Assembly: GCA_025056455.1 (NCBI GenBank)
Contig: JANWVY010000010.1
Coordinates: forward strand, 1 to 64,000
Source: Bryobacteraceae bacterium
GTDB taxonomy: Bacteria; Acidobacteriota; Terriglobia; Bryobacterales; Bryobacteraceae
DNA: 64,000 bases
Direction of reading: 5' to 3'
Positions 814-7,136 of the stretch are shown here, one piece after another; position 1 is the first letter of the stretch, and every line of letters starts with the position of its first letter. The notes beneath the pieces were generated by a model, which had not been told where the DNA came from, made no database searches, and worked only from the letters and a program-made list of their open reading frames with translations. Position numbers and translations under genes: made by a program.

Positions 814-3558
814 CTATCTGGAGCGCCCCATGGCGCTACCCCATCGGCCAGACCCTGTTGAGGCCCCCGGGGCCGACAGACCCATGGGACGCCAGCCCGC
901 CCCGGCTGGATTCAATCTTGATCCAGCTGGAGCCAAACCGCCGGGAAATCCCTCGTAGGCTGAGACTCCCCACCGACCTTGGCGGGAAACACTCGGAAGG
1001 CGGTCCGAGAAGCCGGAATAAGAACTCCGAAACTCTGCCTGAGGAATCGCGCCAGGTAAACCCTCCCATCTCGGGGTGGAGCGGAACCGGCGATCGCTCT
1101 GCTCTTGATGATGCGGAGCCCGTTCACGAACAATCGGGGGATCGATTTGCAAGGGAATCGCGCCGTCACCGCCTTGAGGGGGCAACTCTAGCCGAGGGGG
1201 ATCGACTCTTCTGGGGAACTCTCTGCGAGGGAACTCAACGCTCGGATAGTCGTTTCTCCAGCGCGGGGTCTCTGGTTGGGAAGAGGGAGTTTGGGCGCCG
1301 CCGGACCGGCCACCCCGATCCCGTCCAGCACCCCACTCTCTGCCGGCCGGCCAGTCGGATCGACCTGGAAAGATTTGCTCGAGGTTGGGGGCTGTTTGTC
1401 CGCTGCCGTCACTGCCGCCAATCCTCCTGCGGCTGCGGTCCGAACCCCACGGCTCGGATGCCGGATTGCCTCGTTCGATCGTAAGCGAGTCCCGCCAGCG
1501 GCGCTCGGTTCTTCCCCGCTCGGAAGTCGACTCGCCACTCGCGGAGTTGCGCTCGTCATAGCGCCAACCTGCGCCGCGCTCGGGAGATCGAGCAGAAGGG
1601 GAGCCTGTCCCTGGGAAGCGACCTGTAGCTTCTCCGAAGCGTCGCCAGTTACCTCGCTCGCGCACGCTGCCGCTGTCGCCACTCAGCCTTCCCGGATCGG
1701 CGCCTTGGGAATCCCCCAGCGACCGCCACGACGGCCGAGAGTTTGAAGAAGCGCGGTTTCGCTCAGAACTTCGCTGCGGGTCCGTGGCCGCAGATTCTTC
1801 ATTCCGGCCGAGACCCCGTGGTTCGCCAAATCGCCTCCAACCGCGGGAATCGAGATTGCGACCGGCTCGCCCCGTTTCTGGGCTGGATGGGGTTTCGAGC
1901 GTCGGAGAATCCGGCAACCAACCATTCTCAGAGCGGCGCGCCGTCTCGGCAACGCGCTCCCGACCGCGCTCGCCAAATCGAGTGCGCCCCTGCTCTTCGT
2001 TCGTCCCGTCTGCGGTGCGGTTGAACTCCGGCCGCTCGCCAAAGCCCCGTCCGCCGAATACACGGCGGCTCATTTCCTCGATGCCGCGCCGCTGTTGCTC
2101 AAAGGGGACGCGCTCCACAGACTGGGGCGGCCGCCGACTGTAAAAACGGCCGTCGTCGTTCACACCGGGCTGTGGTTGAAGGATTTCACGATCCGCAAAG
2201 CGCAGACTTGCGCGGTCCGGAACCACCGGAAGACTCCCCCGCATCAACGAAGCAGAACGCAAATCCGATTCACTCAATACCATTGCGCCGCTGCCGCGAC
2301 CGAGAACAAAGTCCTGCGCACTGAGCCCGCTCACTGCATGGCGTACGCGAGCATTCCGGTAAACATTTGTGATGTTGATGTTGTTGACGATTTGCACCGA
2401 GTTGTCGATCAAGGCCGGATCGCCCCAGCCGCGATAGAAGCGCCAGCCATACCACGGGTAGAAGGGTTCAAATGGCGCCAGGGGAACCCAGCCGATCGAG
2501 CCCCATCCCACCCCTGCGTAAAAGCCGGTAGCGCTTCCAAAACCAATCCACGCGACTAGGCCAGGACTCCAGAAGTATTGGGCGGTGATCAGACCTGGAT
2601 ACCAACACCAACCGCGGGGTCCCCAGTACCACCTCCCAAAGTGAAACGGCGCCCAGCCCCAGGGATCGTAGCTCACCCAGCTCCACCCATACCAATCAAT
2701 CCATGCCCACCGGCCAAAGCGGTACGGCGCCCATCCAACGGGCACTCGAGGCACCCAAACCCAACCATAGGGCGGATCGAAAATCCAATCCCCATACAGG
2801 TCCAAGTCCTCCGCTCCGAAGATCGATCGAGACACATACCGGTAGGCTTGCGAGCGATCCAAAGCTCGATCCCGCTGTTCATTCCACCGGTCCCAGTCAT
2901 CCTGCCGCAGCTCACTCACCAGCTGAAATTCCGGGTCCGCTTGACTGCCGCGCACTAACATCGTTCGTCCCCCGCGCAGCCTTTCCGTACCCCGAGGTGT
3001 GTAGATCTCCACCTCCCCCGCGCGAACAGTGATTTCTGTCGTGTTGTCGGGTCGGACACTGATCCGGTAGACGCCTCGTTTCAGGGGCCGAACGGATACG
3101 CTCGGCGTCGCCACTTCTACATCCGCATCTAGGTCCCGAAGGACGCGATAAGTCACCGTTCCCGAAGCTAGCTGGATCGAAAATCGGCGGTATTCGAGCT
3201 CAGCAAATCGGATTTCCGAATTTGCAGCCAAACGGACGAAATTCGCGTAATCAAGCTGCACTTCAGCTCGAGAAGAGACCCCAGTAAGCACGCGGTCCTG
3301 GACGACTAATGGAACGTTTGGCGCGGCCGCCACCCAGTCCCCTGAGTCTCCCCGACGAATCGAAACGTCACCCTGAAGCAAGGACAACCGCGCGACTCCC
3401 CGCCCCGGGCCGTCCGAACCAAAAGCCATTGGCGGCAGGCTCAGACCCAGGGCAAACAATGCGAGAAGGAAACCCCAGCTTGGCAACTGCCGTGGGTTGA
3501 GCCCTGGATGGTCCTTGCGCCTTTCGGTCATCCTTAGCATCTGGCAAAACCACACCAT
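814..3558 (-). CDS. FecR-domain / DUF6600-like exported surface protein
   Basis: A 914-residue exported protein. The ATG at 3558 is preceded by GGGAGG five bases upstream, so this start is preferred over the later ATG at 3531. A hydrophobic signal segment lies at about residues 28-47. Residues about 57-205 look like a FecR-type domain. Residues about 255-390 are extraordinarily rich in Trp, Tyr and Gly, with recurring phrases such as YGDWIFDPPYGWVWVP, typical of the DUF6600 family. The last 450 residues are Arg/Ser/Gly/Pro-rich low complexity, probably disordered and basic. Known members are common in Acidobacteriota and proteobacteria but lack an assigned function; a cell-surface or periplasmic structural role is inferred. 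No anti-sigma partner or ECF sigma factor is adjacent, so classical FecR signalling is unlikely. Confidence 0.8.
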   Translation of the reverse strand: MVWFCQMLRMTERRKDHPGLNPRQLPSWGFLLALFALGLSLPPMAFGSDGPGRGVARLSLLQGDVSIRRGDSGDWVAAAPNVPLVVQDRVLTGVSSRAEVQLDYANFVRLAANSEIRFAELEYRRFSIQLASGTVTYRVLRDLDADVEVATPSVSVRPLKRGVYRISVRPDNTTEITVRAGEVEIYTPRGTERLRGGRTMLVRGSQADPEFQLVSELRQDDWDRWNEQRDRALDRSQAYRYVSRSIFGAEDLDLYGDWIFDPPYGWVWVPRVPVGWAPYRFGRWAWIDWYGWSWVSYDPWGWAPFHFGRWYWGPRGWCWYPGLITAQYFWSPGLVAWIGFGSATGFYAGVGWGSIGWVPLAPFEPFYPWYGWRFYRGWGDPALIDNSVQIVNNINITNVYRNARVRHAVSGLSAQDFVLGRGSGAMVLSESDLRSASLMRGSLPVVPDRASLRFADREILQPQPGVNDDGRFYSRRPPQSVERVPFEQQRRGIEEMSRRVFGGRGFGERPEFNRTADGTNEEQGRTRFGERGRERVAETARRSENGWLPDSPTLETPSSPETGRAGRNLDSRGWRRFGEPRGLGRNEESAATDPQRSSERNRASSNSRPSWRSLGDSQGADPGRLSGDSGSVRERGNWRRFGEATGRFPGTGSPSARSPERGAGWRYDERNSASGESTSERGRTERRWRDSLTIERGNPASEPWGSDRSRRRIGGSDGSGQTAPNLEQIFPGRSDWPAGREWGAGRDRGGRSGGAQTPSSQPETPRWRNDYPSVEFPRREFPRRVDPPRLELPPQGGDGAIPLQIDPPIVRERAPHHQEQSDRRFRSTPRWEGLPGAIPQAEFRSSYSGFSDRLPSVSRQGRWGVSAYEGFPGGLAPAGSRLNPAGAGWRPMGLSAPGASTGSGRWGSAMGRSR

Positions 3559-3656
3559 CTTTGCCTCCCGTCGGACAACCCTTGTTCAGCAATTTGCAAC
3601 CCAAACGCAATCTCATTGATTTCGAAGCACATGTGTTATCATGGCGATCTCGGCGA

Positions 3657-5882
3657 ATGGCTCAAAACCACCACTCCGACCGATTTGCACCATGTTGGCC
3701 GCTCCGCCGAGCCCTCGGCCTCACAGTCCTAACCCTGCTAGGAATCGGCTTCTATTGGAAATTAACCCTAGTCCGGGAGCAATTCATTTGGTTTGACCAC
3801 CCGGACATGGCTTATTTGGAGATCCCACGCCTTCAGTTTCAAGCGCGAGAAATCCATCAGGGCCGCTTTCCCTTGTGGGACCCGCACATCTGGTCCGGGC
3901 AACCGCTCATCGGGCAGACGCAGCCCGGTCCCCTCTACCCGGGCAATCTCTTGTTCTCTCTGCTGCCCCTGCGCGAAGGATATCTGCGGTTTAGCTGGCT
4001 CAACTGGTATTGGGTGGCGATTCATGTCTTTGCCGCCTGGCTTCTCTATCTTTGGATCTGCGATTTGGGCTTGGGACAGAGGGCGGCGTTGTTTGGCGGA
4101 ATCGCCTTCGGATTCGGAGGCTTCGTAGGCACGGTAGCCTGGCTTGACGTCGTGAACGGCATCGTTTGGGCTCCTGCCGTCCTGTTATTTTCTTTTCGCG
4201 CGCAGCGCGGAATCCGACCCTTGGGTCACGCGGCCCTGGCCGGCGTGTGTCTCGGCCTCGCCTGGCTGAGCGGACACCACGAGCTGCCAATCTTGCTTTC
4301 GGCCTCTACCCTTGCGACTTGGACTTGGTTCGCGCTTCGGGACCGCCGCCTGCTGCTGCCAGCCTGTGTTTGCTTGGCGATCGCAGCCCTGGTGGCCAGC
4401 GCGCAGGTTCTTCCTACCTATGAATTCGGGCGTTTGTCACGCCGCTGGATCGGGCTGGAGCAAACCGTTGGGTGGAAGGACAAGATTCCCTACCGCGTTC
4501 ACACCATTTACTCGCTTCCTGCGCGAGGAATGCTAGGAACGGTTTTCCCCCAGATCGGTCGATTTGCCGACGCCAGCTGCTATGTCGGCTGGGCGTTTGC
4601 AGGTTTTGCCTTCTTTGGCGCCGTGACTTGTTGGGGGGAGCGGGTGGTACGCTGGGCGCTTGTTCTGGCCGCGGGCTCTCTCCTCTATTCGCTGGGCTCG
4701 TTTGCTCCCTGGAACGGAATCCTTTATGCGGTGGTGCCGTTTTTCGATAAGGCGCGTATTCCCGCCCGCGGGATGGCCTTGTATGGGTTAGCGCTCTCTC
4801 TGCTGGCGGCCTACGGATTCCGGCAGGCGCTGGCCGAGCCTGCCTCGCCCTGGCTTCGCAAGCTGCAAGTGTTTTTCGCCGTGACGGGAGGCTTGATCCT
4901 AGCCGCGACTGCCGCTTTTTTTCTGGTGGATAAAAATCTTGACGATCGCCTGCCGCTCGGCGGTTTGGCCTGTCTGGCTTGCTGCGGGTTGATCGCGGGC
5001 TGGCGAGCTCAGCGAATCTCTCGTAACTGGTGGTTCACCGGCTTGCTGCTGGTCGTGCTCACGGAGCTTACAAGCGGTGGTCCGTCTTTTTATTCCAGTC
5101 GATTCGAACCGAATCCCTGGCCGTATGCGAGCAAGCTTCAGGCCAACCACGACGTGGCGGCTTTTTTGCGCCAACAACTCCACGCAAGCGGGCCCTTTCG
5201 CATCGCCGTCAATGACGAAGAGCTCGGCATTAACTTCGGAGACTGGCATGGCGTAGACACCCTCCAGGGCTACGTGGCCGGAGTGAGCGAAAACATCCTA
5301 GCGCACGAACTCCATACCCCTCGCACACAAGATTTGCTCGGCGTGCGCTTTTGGCTTGGCTCAAAACCGGATCGTGCACCTGGAATTCAGGAGGAAGTTT
5401 TTCAGGGGCAATCTGGCATCAAGGTATTTCGCAACCCGAACGCATTCCCCAGGGCTTGGATTGCTCACCAAACGAAGTCTGTTGCTGATTCTTCCTGGCT
5501 GCGCATCGCCATCCAAGACCCTCAGCTGGACTTGAGAACGACTGTGGTCCTGGTTGGGGAGGCTCCGCAACTTGAGCGCTGCGGATCCAACGGCCAGGCG
5601 ACGATCCTGAGCCGGACGCCCGATCGAATCCTTCTTCGCACAGAGACCGCGTGCAGAGGCATGCTGGTGGTGAGCGAAACCCATTATCCGGGTTGGGAGG
5701 CGTTGCTCGACGGCCAGCCGGTGCGAATGTGGGAAGCTTACGGAGCGCTGCGCGGCATTGTCGTCCCGCCCGGCACACACGAGGTGGAAATGCGCTTCCG
5801 CCCTCGCTCGGTCTATGCTGGACTGGGACTTTGCGCCTTCGGTCTGCTGCTTGCAACGGTGATTTGGATGCAAAGGAAGTAG
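3657..5882 (+). CDS. YfhO-type polytopic membrane protein (GT-C-like)
   Basis: A large inner-membrane protein of about 742 residues from the ATG at 3657. The frame stays open further upstream only with TTG or GTG starts, and no good ribosome-binding site distinguishes them. About 11-13 hydrophobic helices cover the first two thirds, followed by a soluble C-terminal region of about 230 residues. The early loop FPLWDPHIWSGQPLIG and the late phrase SETHYPGWEALLDGQPV are hallmarks of the YfhO family, which is related to GT-C glycosyltransferases and has been linked to glycosylation of lipoteichoic acid or other envelope polymers in Firmicutes. The exact acceptor here is unknown. It is followed after 3 bases by the nagA-like gene, so the two are probably co-transcribed. 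Confidence 0.85.
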   Translation: MAQNHHSDRFAPCWPLRRALGLTVLTLLGIGFYWKLTLVREQFIWFDHPDMAYLEIPRLQFQAREIHQGRFPLWDPHIWSGQPLIGQTQPGPLYPGNLLFSLLPLREGYLRFSWLNWYWVAIHVFAAWLLYLWICDLGLGQRAALFGGIAFGFGGFVGTVAWLDVVNGIVWAPAVLLFSFRAQRGIRPLGHAALAGVCLGLAWLSGHHELPILLSASTLATWTWFALRDRRLLLPACVCLAIAALVASAQVLPTYEFGRLSRRWIGLEQTVGWKDKIPYRVHTIYSLPARGMLGTVFPQIGRFADASCYVGWAFAGFAFFGAVTCWGERVVRWALVLAAGSLLYSLGSFAPWNGILYAVVPFFDKARIPARGMALYGLALSLLAAYGFRQALAEPASPWLRKLQVFFAVTGGLILAATAAFFLVDKNLDDRLPLGGLACLACCGLIAGWRAQRISRNWWFTGLLLVVLTELTSGGPSFYSSRFEPNPWPYASKLQANHDVAAFLRQQLHASGPFRIAVNDEELGINFGDWHGVDTLQGYVAGVSENILAHELHTPRTQDLLGVRFWLGSKPDRAPGIQEEVFQGQSGIKVFRNPNAFPRAWIAHQTKSVADSSWLRIAIQDPQLDLRTTVVLVGEAPQLERCGSNGQATILSRTPDRILLRTETACRGMLVVSETHYPGWEALLDGQPVRMWEAYGALRGIVVPPGTHEVEMRFRPRSVYAGLGLCAFGLLLATVIWMQRK

Positions 5883-5885
5883 CCT

Positions 5886-7136
5886 ATGATCTGCATCACG
5901 GGATCACTCGTTCTTCCCGATCGCATCATCGAATGCGGCTCAGTGCTCGTGGCGGGGGAAAAAATCCAGAAGCTCGTGCGAGGATCTAAGCCACCCCGCG
6001 GCGCCCTTCAGCTCGACTTTCGCGATTGCTATGTAGCGCCAGGCTTTATTGACATTCATGTTCATGGCGGCGCTGGCGCCGACTACATGGATGGCGATGA
6101 GGCCGCCGTTCGTCAGGTGAATCGGGCGCATCTCCGGCACGGTACGACCACGCTGTTCCCCACGACAACGACCGCTAGCCCGGACCAAATCCGGGCCATG
6201 ATTGAGGCCTGCGCCAAAGTCCAAAAACACTGGACCCCAGCTGACGGTGCGCGCATCGGCGGCGTGCATCTTTACGGACCTTACTTTGCGCCAAACAAAC
6301 TTGGTTGCCACCCACGCCTTGGACGGAGGGACCCAAAACCAGAGGAGTTCCGACGCTATTTTCGAGGGAATCGAGTGCGCATTGCGACCTGCGCAGCAGA
6401 ACTCACCGGAGCCGCAGCTTTCTACCGCCTAGCCCGCCACAAAAACTGCCTAATTACCTGCGGGCATTCCGACGCAAGCTGGCCAGAAATGGAAGCCGCT
6501 TTTCGACAAGGCGTCCGCCATGTGGATCATTTCTGGTGCGCGATGAGTTCGGTGCCAAGTGTGCGCGCCCGGCTCGGAACACCCATGCGCGGCAGTATGG
6601 AACAGTTCGTCTTGGCTCACCCCGAAATGTCCACCGAAGTAATCGCCGACGGCGAGCACCTGGCTCCAGAGCTGCTCAACTATGCCTACCGGATGCTTGG
6701 GCCAGACCGGCTGTGCTTGGTGACCGACGCCAACCGCGCCCTCGACATGCCACCAGGGCGTTACCGCTTCGGGCACCGGGATACCGGCACGTGGTTTGAA
6801 AGCAATGGCCGGGTGGGCTTCTTACCGGGGAAGGGTCTGGCTAGCAGCGTGGTGGGGCTCGATTTCATGGTCCGCACGATGGCCCGCGACACGGGTGCGC
6901 CGCTCCCGGAAATCATTCGCATGGCCACTCTCACGCCAGCGCGGCTAACCGGCATCGCGCATCAAACCGGAAGCCTCGCTGAGGGAAAGCAAGCCGATTT
7001 AGTGGTTCTGACCAAACAGCTGGAGGTGAAAAGCGTCATGGTGGCAGGCAAGTTAGTCCACGGGACTCCGCCAGCGGGTGCGGTCGGACCCGCGCGACCG
7101 AAGAGCAACAAGCCTACCCTCATCCGAGCGCGCTAG
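5886..7136 (+). CDS. N-acetylglucosamine-6-phosphate deacetylase-like amidohydrolase
   Basis: A 416-residue amidohydrolase-superfamily protein, full length for NagA, which deacetylates GlcNAc-6-phosphate in amino-sugar recycling. Visible motifs are PGFIDIHVHGGAG (metal ligands H58 and H60), CGHSDAS (H194), VDHFWCAM (H215), VIADGEH and LVTDAN (catalytic D281). The segment that is HLEGP in classical NagA reads HLYGP here, so the metal-bridging Glu is replaced by Tyr130, and the Asn of the usual H-x-x-N-A-M is Cys. This suggests altered metal content or a different substrate; a specialised paralogue is as likely as true NagA. GGAAG precedes the ATG. It lies 3 bases after the YfhO-type gene and its stop overlaps the convergent transporter gene by 4 bases. 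Confidence 0.75.
   Translation: MICITGSLVLPDRIIECGSVLVAGEKIQKLVRGSKPPRGALQLDFRDCYVAPGFIDIHVHGGAGADYMDGDEAAVRQVNRAHLRHGTTTLFPTTTTASPDQIRAMIEACAKVQKHWTPADGARIGGVHLYGPYFAPNKLGCHPRLGRRDPKPEEFRRYFRGNRVRIATCAAELTGAAAFYRLARHKNCLITCGHSDASWPEMEAAFRQGVRHVDHFWCAMSSVPSVRARLGTPMRGSMEQFVLAHPEMSTEVIADGEHLAPELLNYAYRMLGPDRLCLVTDANRALDMPPGRYRFGHRDTGTWFESNGRVGFLPGKGLASSVVGLDFMVRTMARDTGAPLPEIIRMATLTPARLTGIAHQTGSLAEGKQADLVVLTKQLEVKSVMVAGKLVHGTPPAGAVGPARPKSNKPTLIRAR

Follow-up and report, generated by a model that had tools for sequence, protein, structure and literature searches.

The window, i.e., the whole 64,000-nt stretch of DNA analysed here, encodes a NagA-family amidohydrolase that follows its upstream neighbour after a gap of 3 bp:

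3561-5882, plus strand: YfhO-like membrane protein, immediately upstream (PF09586, 29 bits; cut-off 28.5)
5886-7136, plus strand: NagA-family amidohydrolase, member of what we call the Tyr130 clade (416 aa, intact ORF, Pfam family Amidohydro_1, NagA fold)

The amidohydrolase ORF starts with an ATG, with the purine-rich AAAGGAAG just 5′ of it, and contains no internal stops. Its best NCBIfam model is nagA (TIGR00221), albeit with a score of 206.3 bits, below the curated cut-off of 225.65. An AF2 model computed from a 70-row alignment, three plasmid protein rows being left out, reached a pLDDT of 94.7 and a pTM of 0.92, and matched B. subtilis NagA (2vhl) with Z 56.2 and an rmsd of 1.8 over 383 residues; NagA structures as a group scored Z 54-56, the next family ~29. 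Base composition (GC 0.61 for the gene vs 0.58 for the window) gave no clear sign of recent transfer, and the matches in phage records, among those listed, reached only ~30% identity. Divergently oriented to the YfhO-NagA pair lies a further gene (814-3558, minus strand), whose 914-aa product has an N-terminus that looks FecR-like by eye and a long Arg/Gly/Ser-rich tail.

Residue equivalences were taken from an alignment of the window protein with M. smegmatis NagA, in which H56/H58 and D267 bind metal M1, H188 and H209 bind M2, and E122 ligates both; H244 contacts the anomeric hydroxyl and N212 the phosphate, and in M. marinum NagA the His equivalent to loop residue H134 is required for activity (PMC6016474). 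Conservation was read from a 188-protein alignment, in which position 130 is Tyr in 94 proteins and Glu in 93, with no third residue and one fragment lacking data:

6057-6065, plus strand: HxH metal motif, H58-V59-H60 (= H56/H58); both His in 94/94 clade members
6273-6275, plus strand: Tyr130, codon TAC, replacing the metal-bridging Glu (= E122); 94/94 Tyr within the clade, 93/93 Glu outside it
6309-6311, plus strand: His142, active-site loop His (= H134); 94/94
6465-6467, plus strand: His194, β5 metal ligand (= H188); 94/94 and 93/93
6525-6530, plus strand: Asp214-His215, Asp before the β6 metal ligand (His215 = H209); Asp214 in 94/94 vs 0/93
6537-6539, plus strand: Cys218, replacing the phosphate-binding Asn (= N212); Cys in 94/94
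6657-6659, plus strand: His258, equivalent of the substrate-binding H244; 94/94 and 93/93
6726-6728, plus strand: Asp281, β8 catalytic Asp and metal ligand (= D267); 94/94 and 93/93

A preliminary description of this DNA had pointed to a NagA-like deacetylase without the bridging Glu, and its residue assignments largely held: H58, H60, H194, H215 and D281 are all intact in the 416-aa ORF, as are H142 and H258, and the HLEGP of solved NagA sequences reads HLYGP, the TAC codon of Tyr130 falling on E122 in the alignment. Equally real is the Cys reported for the Asn of HxxNAM, a position that is Asn in 83 of the 93 Glu-type proteins (Ser in five, Cys in five). The loop GCHPRLGRR, in contrast, had been singled out as unusual, but GCHxxxGRR proved to be the normal sequence of the clade (C141 in 80/81, G146 in 79/81, R147 in 77/81 and R148 in 81/81). 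Relative to NagA, an insertion of ~8 residues follows the CAM motif and bears a conserved Arg227 (93/94) and Arg229 (78/81), whose aligned equivalence to the phosphate-binding Arg that NagA receives from the neighbouring subunit is uncertain.

Tyr130 was present in the window protein and all 80 related loci (81/81), the latter found by six peptide patterns none of which includes position 130, and it recurred in members retrieved by whole-protein searches of genomes and plasmids. Its carriers comprise Acidobacteriota, Verrucomicrobiota, Planctomycetota and Rhizobiales plasmids, and extend to Ensifer and Rhizobium plasmid proteins of 54-55% identity and to a planctomycete deep branch of 43% identity (L216). 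All 94 members keep the HxH motif, H142, H194, H215, H258 and D281. A sequencing error, the escape that the preliminary description had left for Tyr130, and likewise chance, are ruled out by Tyr in 94/94 clade members as compared to 0/93 Glu-type homologues.

Position 214 changes along with position 130. Asp214 directly precedes the ligand H215 at the end of β6 (DSSP of the AF2 model) and accompanies every Tyr130 (94/94) and no Glu130 (0/93), a count in which it was favoured for part of the pattern-found set, as one of the six patterns spans residues 213-220; it is also found in the 13 Tyr members of the alignment obtained by whole-protein search. Glu-type proteins have Thr (82), Ser (10) or Ala (1) instead. 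The clade-specific residues shared with L216 are T95, Y130, A167, D214, P233 and G301, plus F134, C218 and R227; four of these (P233, F134, C218, R227) are present in a few Glu-type proteins too. Because the Tyr130 and Asp214 changes lie on the same branch, their linkage counts as a single evolutionary event. The coupling itself appears to be a new observation.

In two trees, both from quick searches, the Tyr130 sequences formed one clade (SH-aLRT 100 and 99), which answers in the affirmative the earlier question of whether the HLYGP variant has its own clade among NagA homologues. Its nearest neighbours in the trees are clades that have Glu at this position. One of them, from the window's bacterial family (L101-L105; 35-40% identity), ranks among the closest Glu-type relatives; it shares Cys141 and Cys218 (HLYCAM, GCH) and the Arg-bearing insertion, and differs in having Glu (HIEGP), Thr before the β6 His, and neither Trp199 nor Trp217. 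Since these Glu-type proteins already have both cysteines, the Cys141/Cys218 changes probably came first and the Glu-to-Tyr replacement later.

Counting as members the deep branch and proteins of at least 58% identity, with each sample including its centre genome, the clade was found in 4/61 sampled genomes of the window's family, 3/297 of its phylum, 3/240 Verrucomicrobiota and 7/246 Planctomycetota, i.e., in a patchy 1-7% of sampled genomes. Identity between phyla stays at ~60% and the phyla are intermixed in the tree, which makes transfer of the gene between phyla likely. Of the 15 carrier genomes checked, 14 contain one or more other NagA-like genes, all Glu-type where they could be read, so that the Tyr130 gene is usually an extra copy in its genome. 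The paralogue in the window's own genome (L089, contig C23, ~249963-250937, minus strand) is Glu-type with QxN and, at 231.6 bits, passes the nagA cut-off of 225.65; it reads QVN for HxH and HLGNGAH for HLxNAM, and has HVEGP intact. Proteins of this type were matched in most of the sampled family genomes. One verrucomicrobial genome (G361) holds two Tyr130-clade copies (L030 and L175), the second with GAH for GCH.

In this genome only, the YfhO-like gene is probably co-transcribed with the amidohydrolase gene, an arrangement from which an envelope sugar had been proposed as substrate. No YfhO relative was found near any other clade member examined, and YfhO was dropped as a general clue to the substrate; its adjacency is not conserved. 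An envelope-sugar role may nevertheless apply, in that three planctomycete members adjoin nucleotide-sugar genes. These three members, the deep branch among them, lie beside nucleotidyltransferase, UDP-glucose/GDP-mannose dehydrogenase, and RmlB-like or GDP-mannose dehydratase genes. For the planctomycete Tyr130-clade loci L236, L237 and L239, the adjoining nucleotide-sugar genes are those for a nucleotidyltransferase, UDP-glucose dehydrogenase, an RmlB-like protein, GDP-mannose dehydratase and a GDP-fucose synthase-like protein. Other members adjoin sugar-catabolism genes. Contexts vary widely by lineage, and neither a single conserved operon nor a constant partner was found across the clade. 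In Verrucomicrobiaceae the neighbour is a Gfo/Idh oxidoreductase gene, mostly with a 4 bp overlap; planctomycete neighbours encode HPS/OMP-decarboxylase-like, Zn alcohol dehydrogenase, SDR and xylose-isomerase-like proteins; Bryobacterales have an FGGY kinase gene two genes downstream; and in Ensifer the order is DeoR-type regulator, Tyr130 gene, BadF/NagK-like kinase, with a 1 bp overlap. Sugar metabolism is a frequent neighbourhood theme, with sugar oxidoreductases, isomerase-like proteins and kinases recurring. The enzyme probably acts on a sugar amide.

By a sequence criterion alone, HxH, β5 His and β8 Asp in combination with a missing bridging residue correspond to the α-mononuclear ligand set, a recognised class of amidohydrolase site (PMC12017989). 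Because the retained residues include all of this site, we favour, with a probability of roughly 0.48, a functional NagA/CE9 member that would hold one metal at the α site, place Tyr130 in the vacated position and hydrolyse a sugar amide. In this reading the two-metal site has lost its bridging Glu, now Tyr130, and gained the acidic Asp214 beside a ligand His. One divalent metal would then be bound at the α site via H58, H60, H194 and D281, with D281 acting as general base and acid and H215 and H142 assisting catalysis, while the hydroxyl of Tyr130 would fill the vacated β-site region, from where it would polarise the scissile carbonyl; the enzyme would probably hydrolyse a sugar-borne amide. 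Weakening the α-only reading, the β-site His H194 and H215 are likewise invariant, which would also suit a β-site or two-metal centre.

E. coli NagA has QxN in place of HxH, and 30 of the 93 Glu-type proteins show the same exchange with Glu kept; loss of HxH in the Tyr clade amounts to 0/94. Judged by these motifs, the Tyr clade mirrors the mononuclear E. coli-type NagA, which belongs to the same family and also has one metal site reduced: Glu lost and HxH kept in the one, Glu kept and HxH lost in the other.

The invariance of Tyr130 and of both β-site His also suits a different arrangement, namely one in which the Tyr130 phenolate is itself a metal ligand, either in a β-site Tyr/His/His centre or as a bridge between two metals. 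D-aminoacylases, assigned to subtype V, offer a precedent for another ligand at the bridging position, with Cys in a Cys/His/His set (PMC12017989). On general chemical grounds, however, the longer Tyr should bridge metals less well than Glu, and the full conservation of HxH would need another reason, as β-mononuclear Glu-type proteins often lose it (QxN in 30/93); we regard this arrangement as unlikely. D-aminoacylase and OngB, the latter deacetylating an amino-sugar acid, do resemble the clade in being mononuclear and in having neither Glu nor Lys at the bridging position, yet they differ by their Cys/His/His β site, where the window protein has Tyr and not Cys, and by a large insertion domain (PMC12017989).

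A carboxylate swap, in which Asp214 replaces Glu130 as a direct ligand and the two-metal centre survives with rearranged ligands, would account for the perfect Tyr130-Asp214 linkage, which includes the deep branch at 43% identity, and for an Asp where the other proteins have Thr, Ser or Ala. HutI of related genomes also has an Asp directly before a His (ADHLE motif) that we take to be the β6 His. Yet neighbouring residues of a regular strand, such as 214 and H215, have side chains facing opposite ways, the two changes count as one event, and a profile alignment to HutI, at an overall probability of 96.9, left the strands relevant to D214 unaligned. Such a swap strikes us as rather improbable.

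A further candidate is an ordinary NagA, with metal binding that suffices even in the absence of the Glu and GlcNAc-6-P as the substrate that it deacetylates in vivo. NagA fold and descent, the retention of H142, H258 and D281, and the NagK-like kinase gene overlapping the clade member's gene in Ensifer agree with it; against it stand the further NagA-like gene in 14/15 carrier genomes, Cys for the phosphate-binding Asn in 94/94 members and the score under the curated nagA cut-off, and we consider it distinctly improbable. A catalytically dead pseudo-enzyme, kept for binding, regulation or a similar role, would explain the absence of a supposedly essential ligand but is very hard to reconcile with all other catalytic and metal residues being invariant across four phyla at ~60% identity, or with other amidohydrolases being active without a bridging residue (PMC12017989).

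Compared with NagA of family CE9 (TIGR00221; 2vhl, M. smegmatis 6fv3/6fv4), the clade has the same fold, domain order, HxH motif, β5 and β6 His, β8 Asp, loop His142 and His258. It departs from NagA by Glu to Tyr130, Thr to Asp214 and Asn to Cys218, and the window protein by the ~8-residue Arg-bearing insertion and its sub-threshold nagA score. The β5 His, β6 His and β8 Asp expected of NagA/CE9 are present, while the Glu/His/His that defines the family is not, position 130 being Tyr in 94/94; the clade is NagA by descent and fold without NagA's defining triad. The α-mononuclear subtype III deaminases share the predicted ligand set of HxH, β5 His and β8 Asp without a bridge, but belong to another branch of the superfamily and mostly catalyse C=N deamination (PMC12828455), and their fold match lies far below that of NagA. 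With the structure and sequence matches of the window protein going to NagA, the likeness to subtype III would be an analogy of working mode, not of descent.

Each of the PDB sequence matches listed was either a Glu-type NagA or a less closely related amidohydrolase, and a search of the open-access literature for the motifs HLYGP, HFYGP and HFWCAM yielded no paper on this clade, the hits being chance occurrences of the letters in papers whose titles did not concern amidohydrolases. The clade apparently constitutes a separate, working enzyme family. Tentatively, it may represent a new type of amidohydrolase metal centre, built on a NagA barrel with Tyr for the bridging Glu, a compensating Asp and a sugar substrate other than GlcNAc-6-P. 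The Glu is a defining metal ligand of NagA/CE9, and a whole clade that lacks it, keeps the other ligands and has a new coupled Asp amounts to a natural experiment that sharply tests how amidohydrolases shift among two-metal, α-site and β-site catalysis. In Acidobacteriota, Verrucomicrobiota, Planctomycetota and rhizobia, the name 'NagA' cannot safely be given to these genes by homology; the curated nagA model already places the window protein under its cut-off.

Two further variations were seen among NagA-like proteins. A divergent verrucomicrobial subgroup (L195-L209) has HFCNQM for HLxNAM and ICDxLH for IADGxH, and in many of its members the usual GHS has become CTH or CVH. The NagA homologue L160 (genome G368) has HLESNF for HLEGPx and NRM for NAM, i.e., a divergent loop with the Glu kept.
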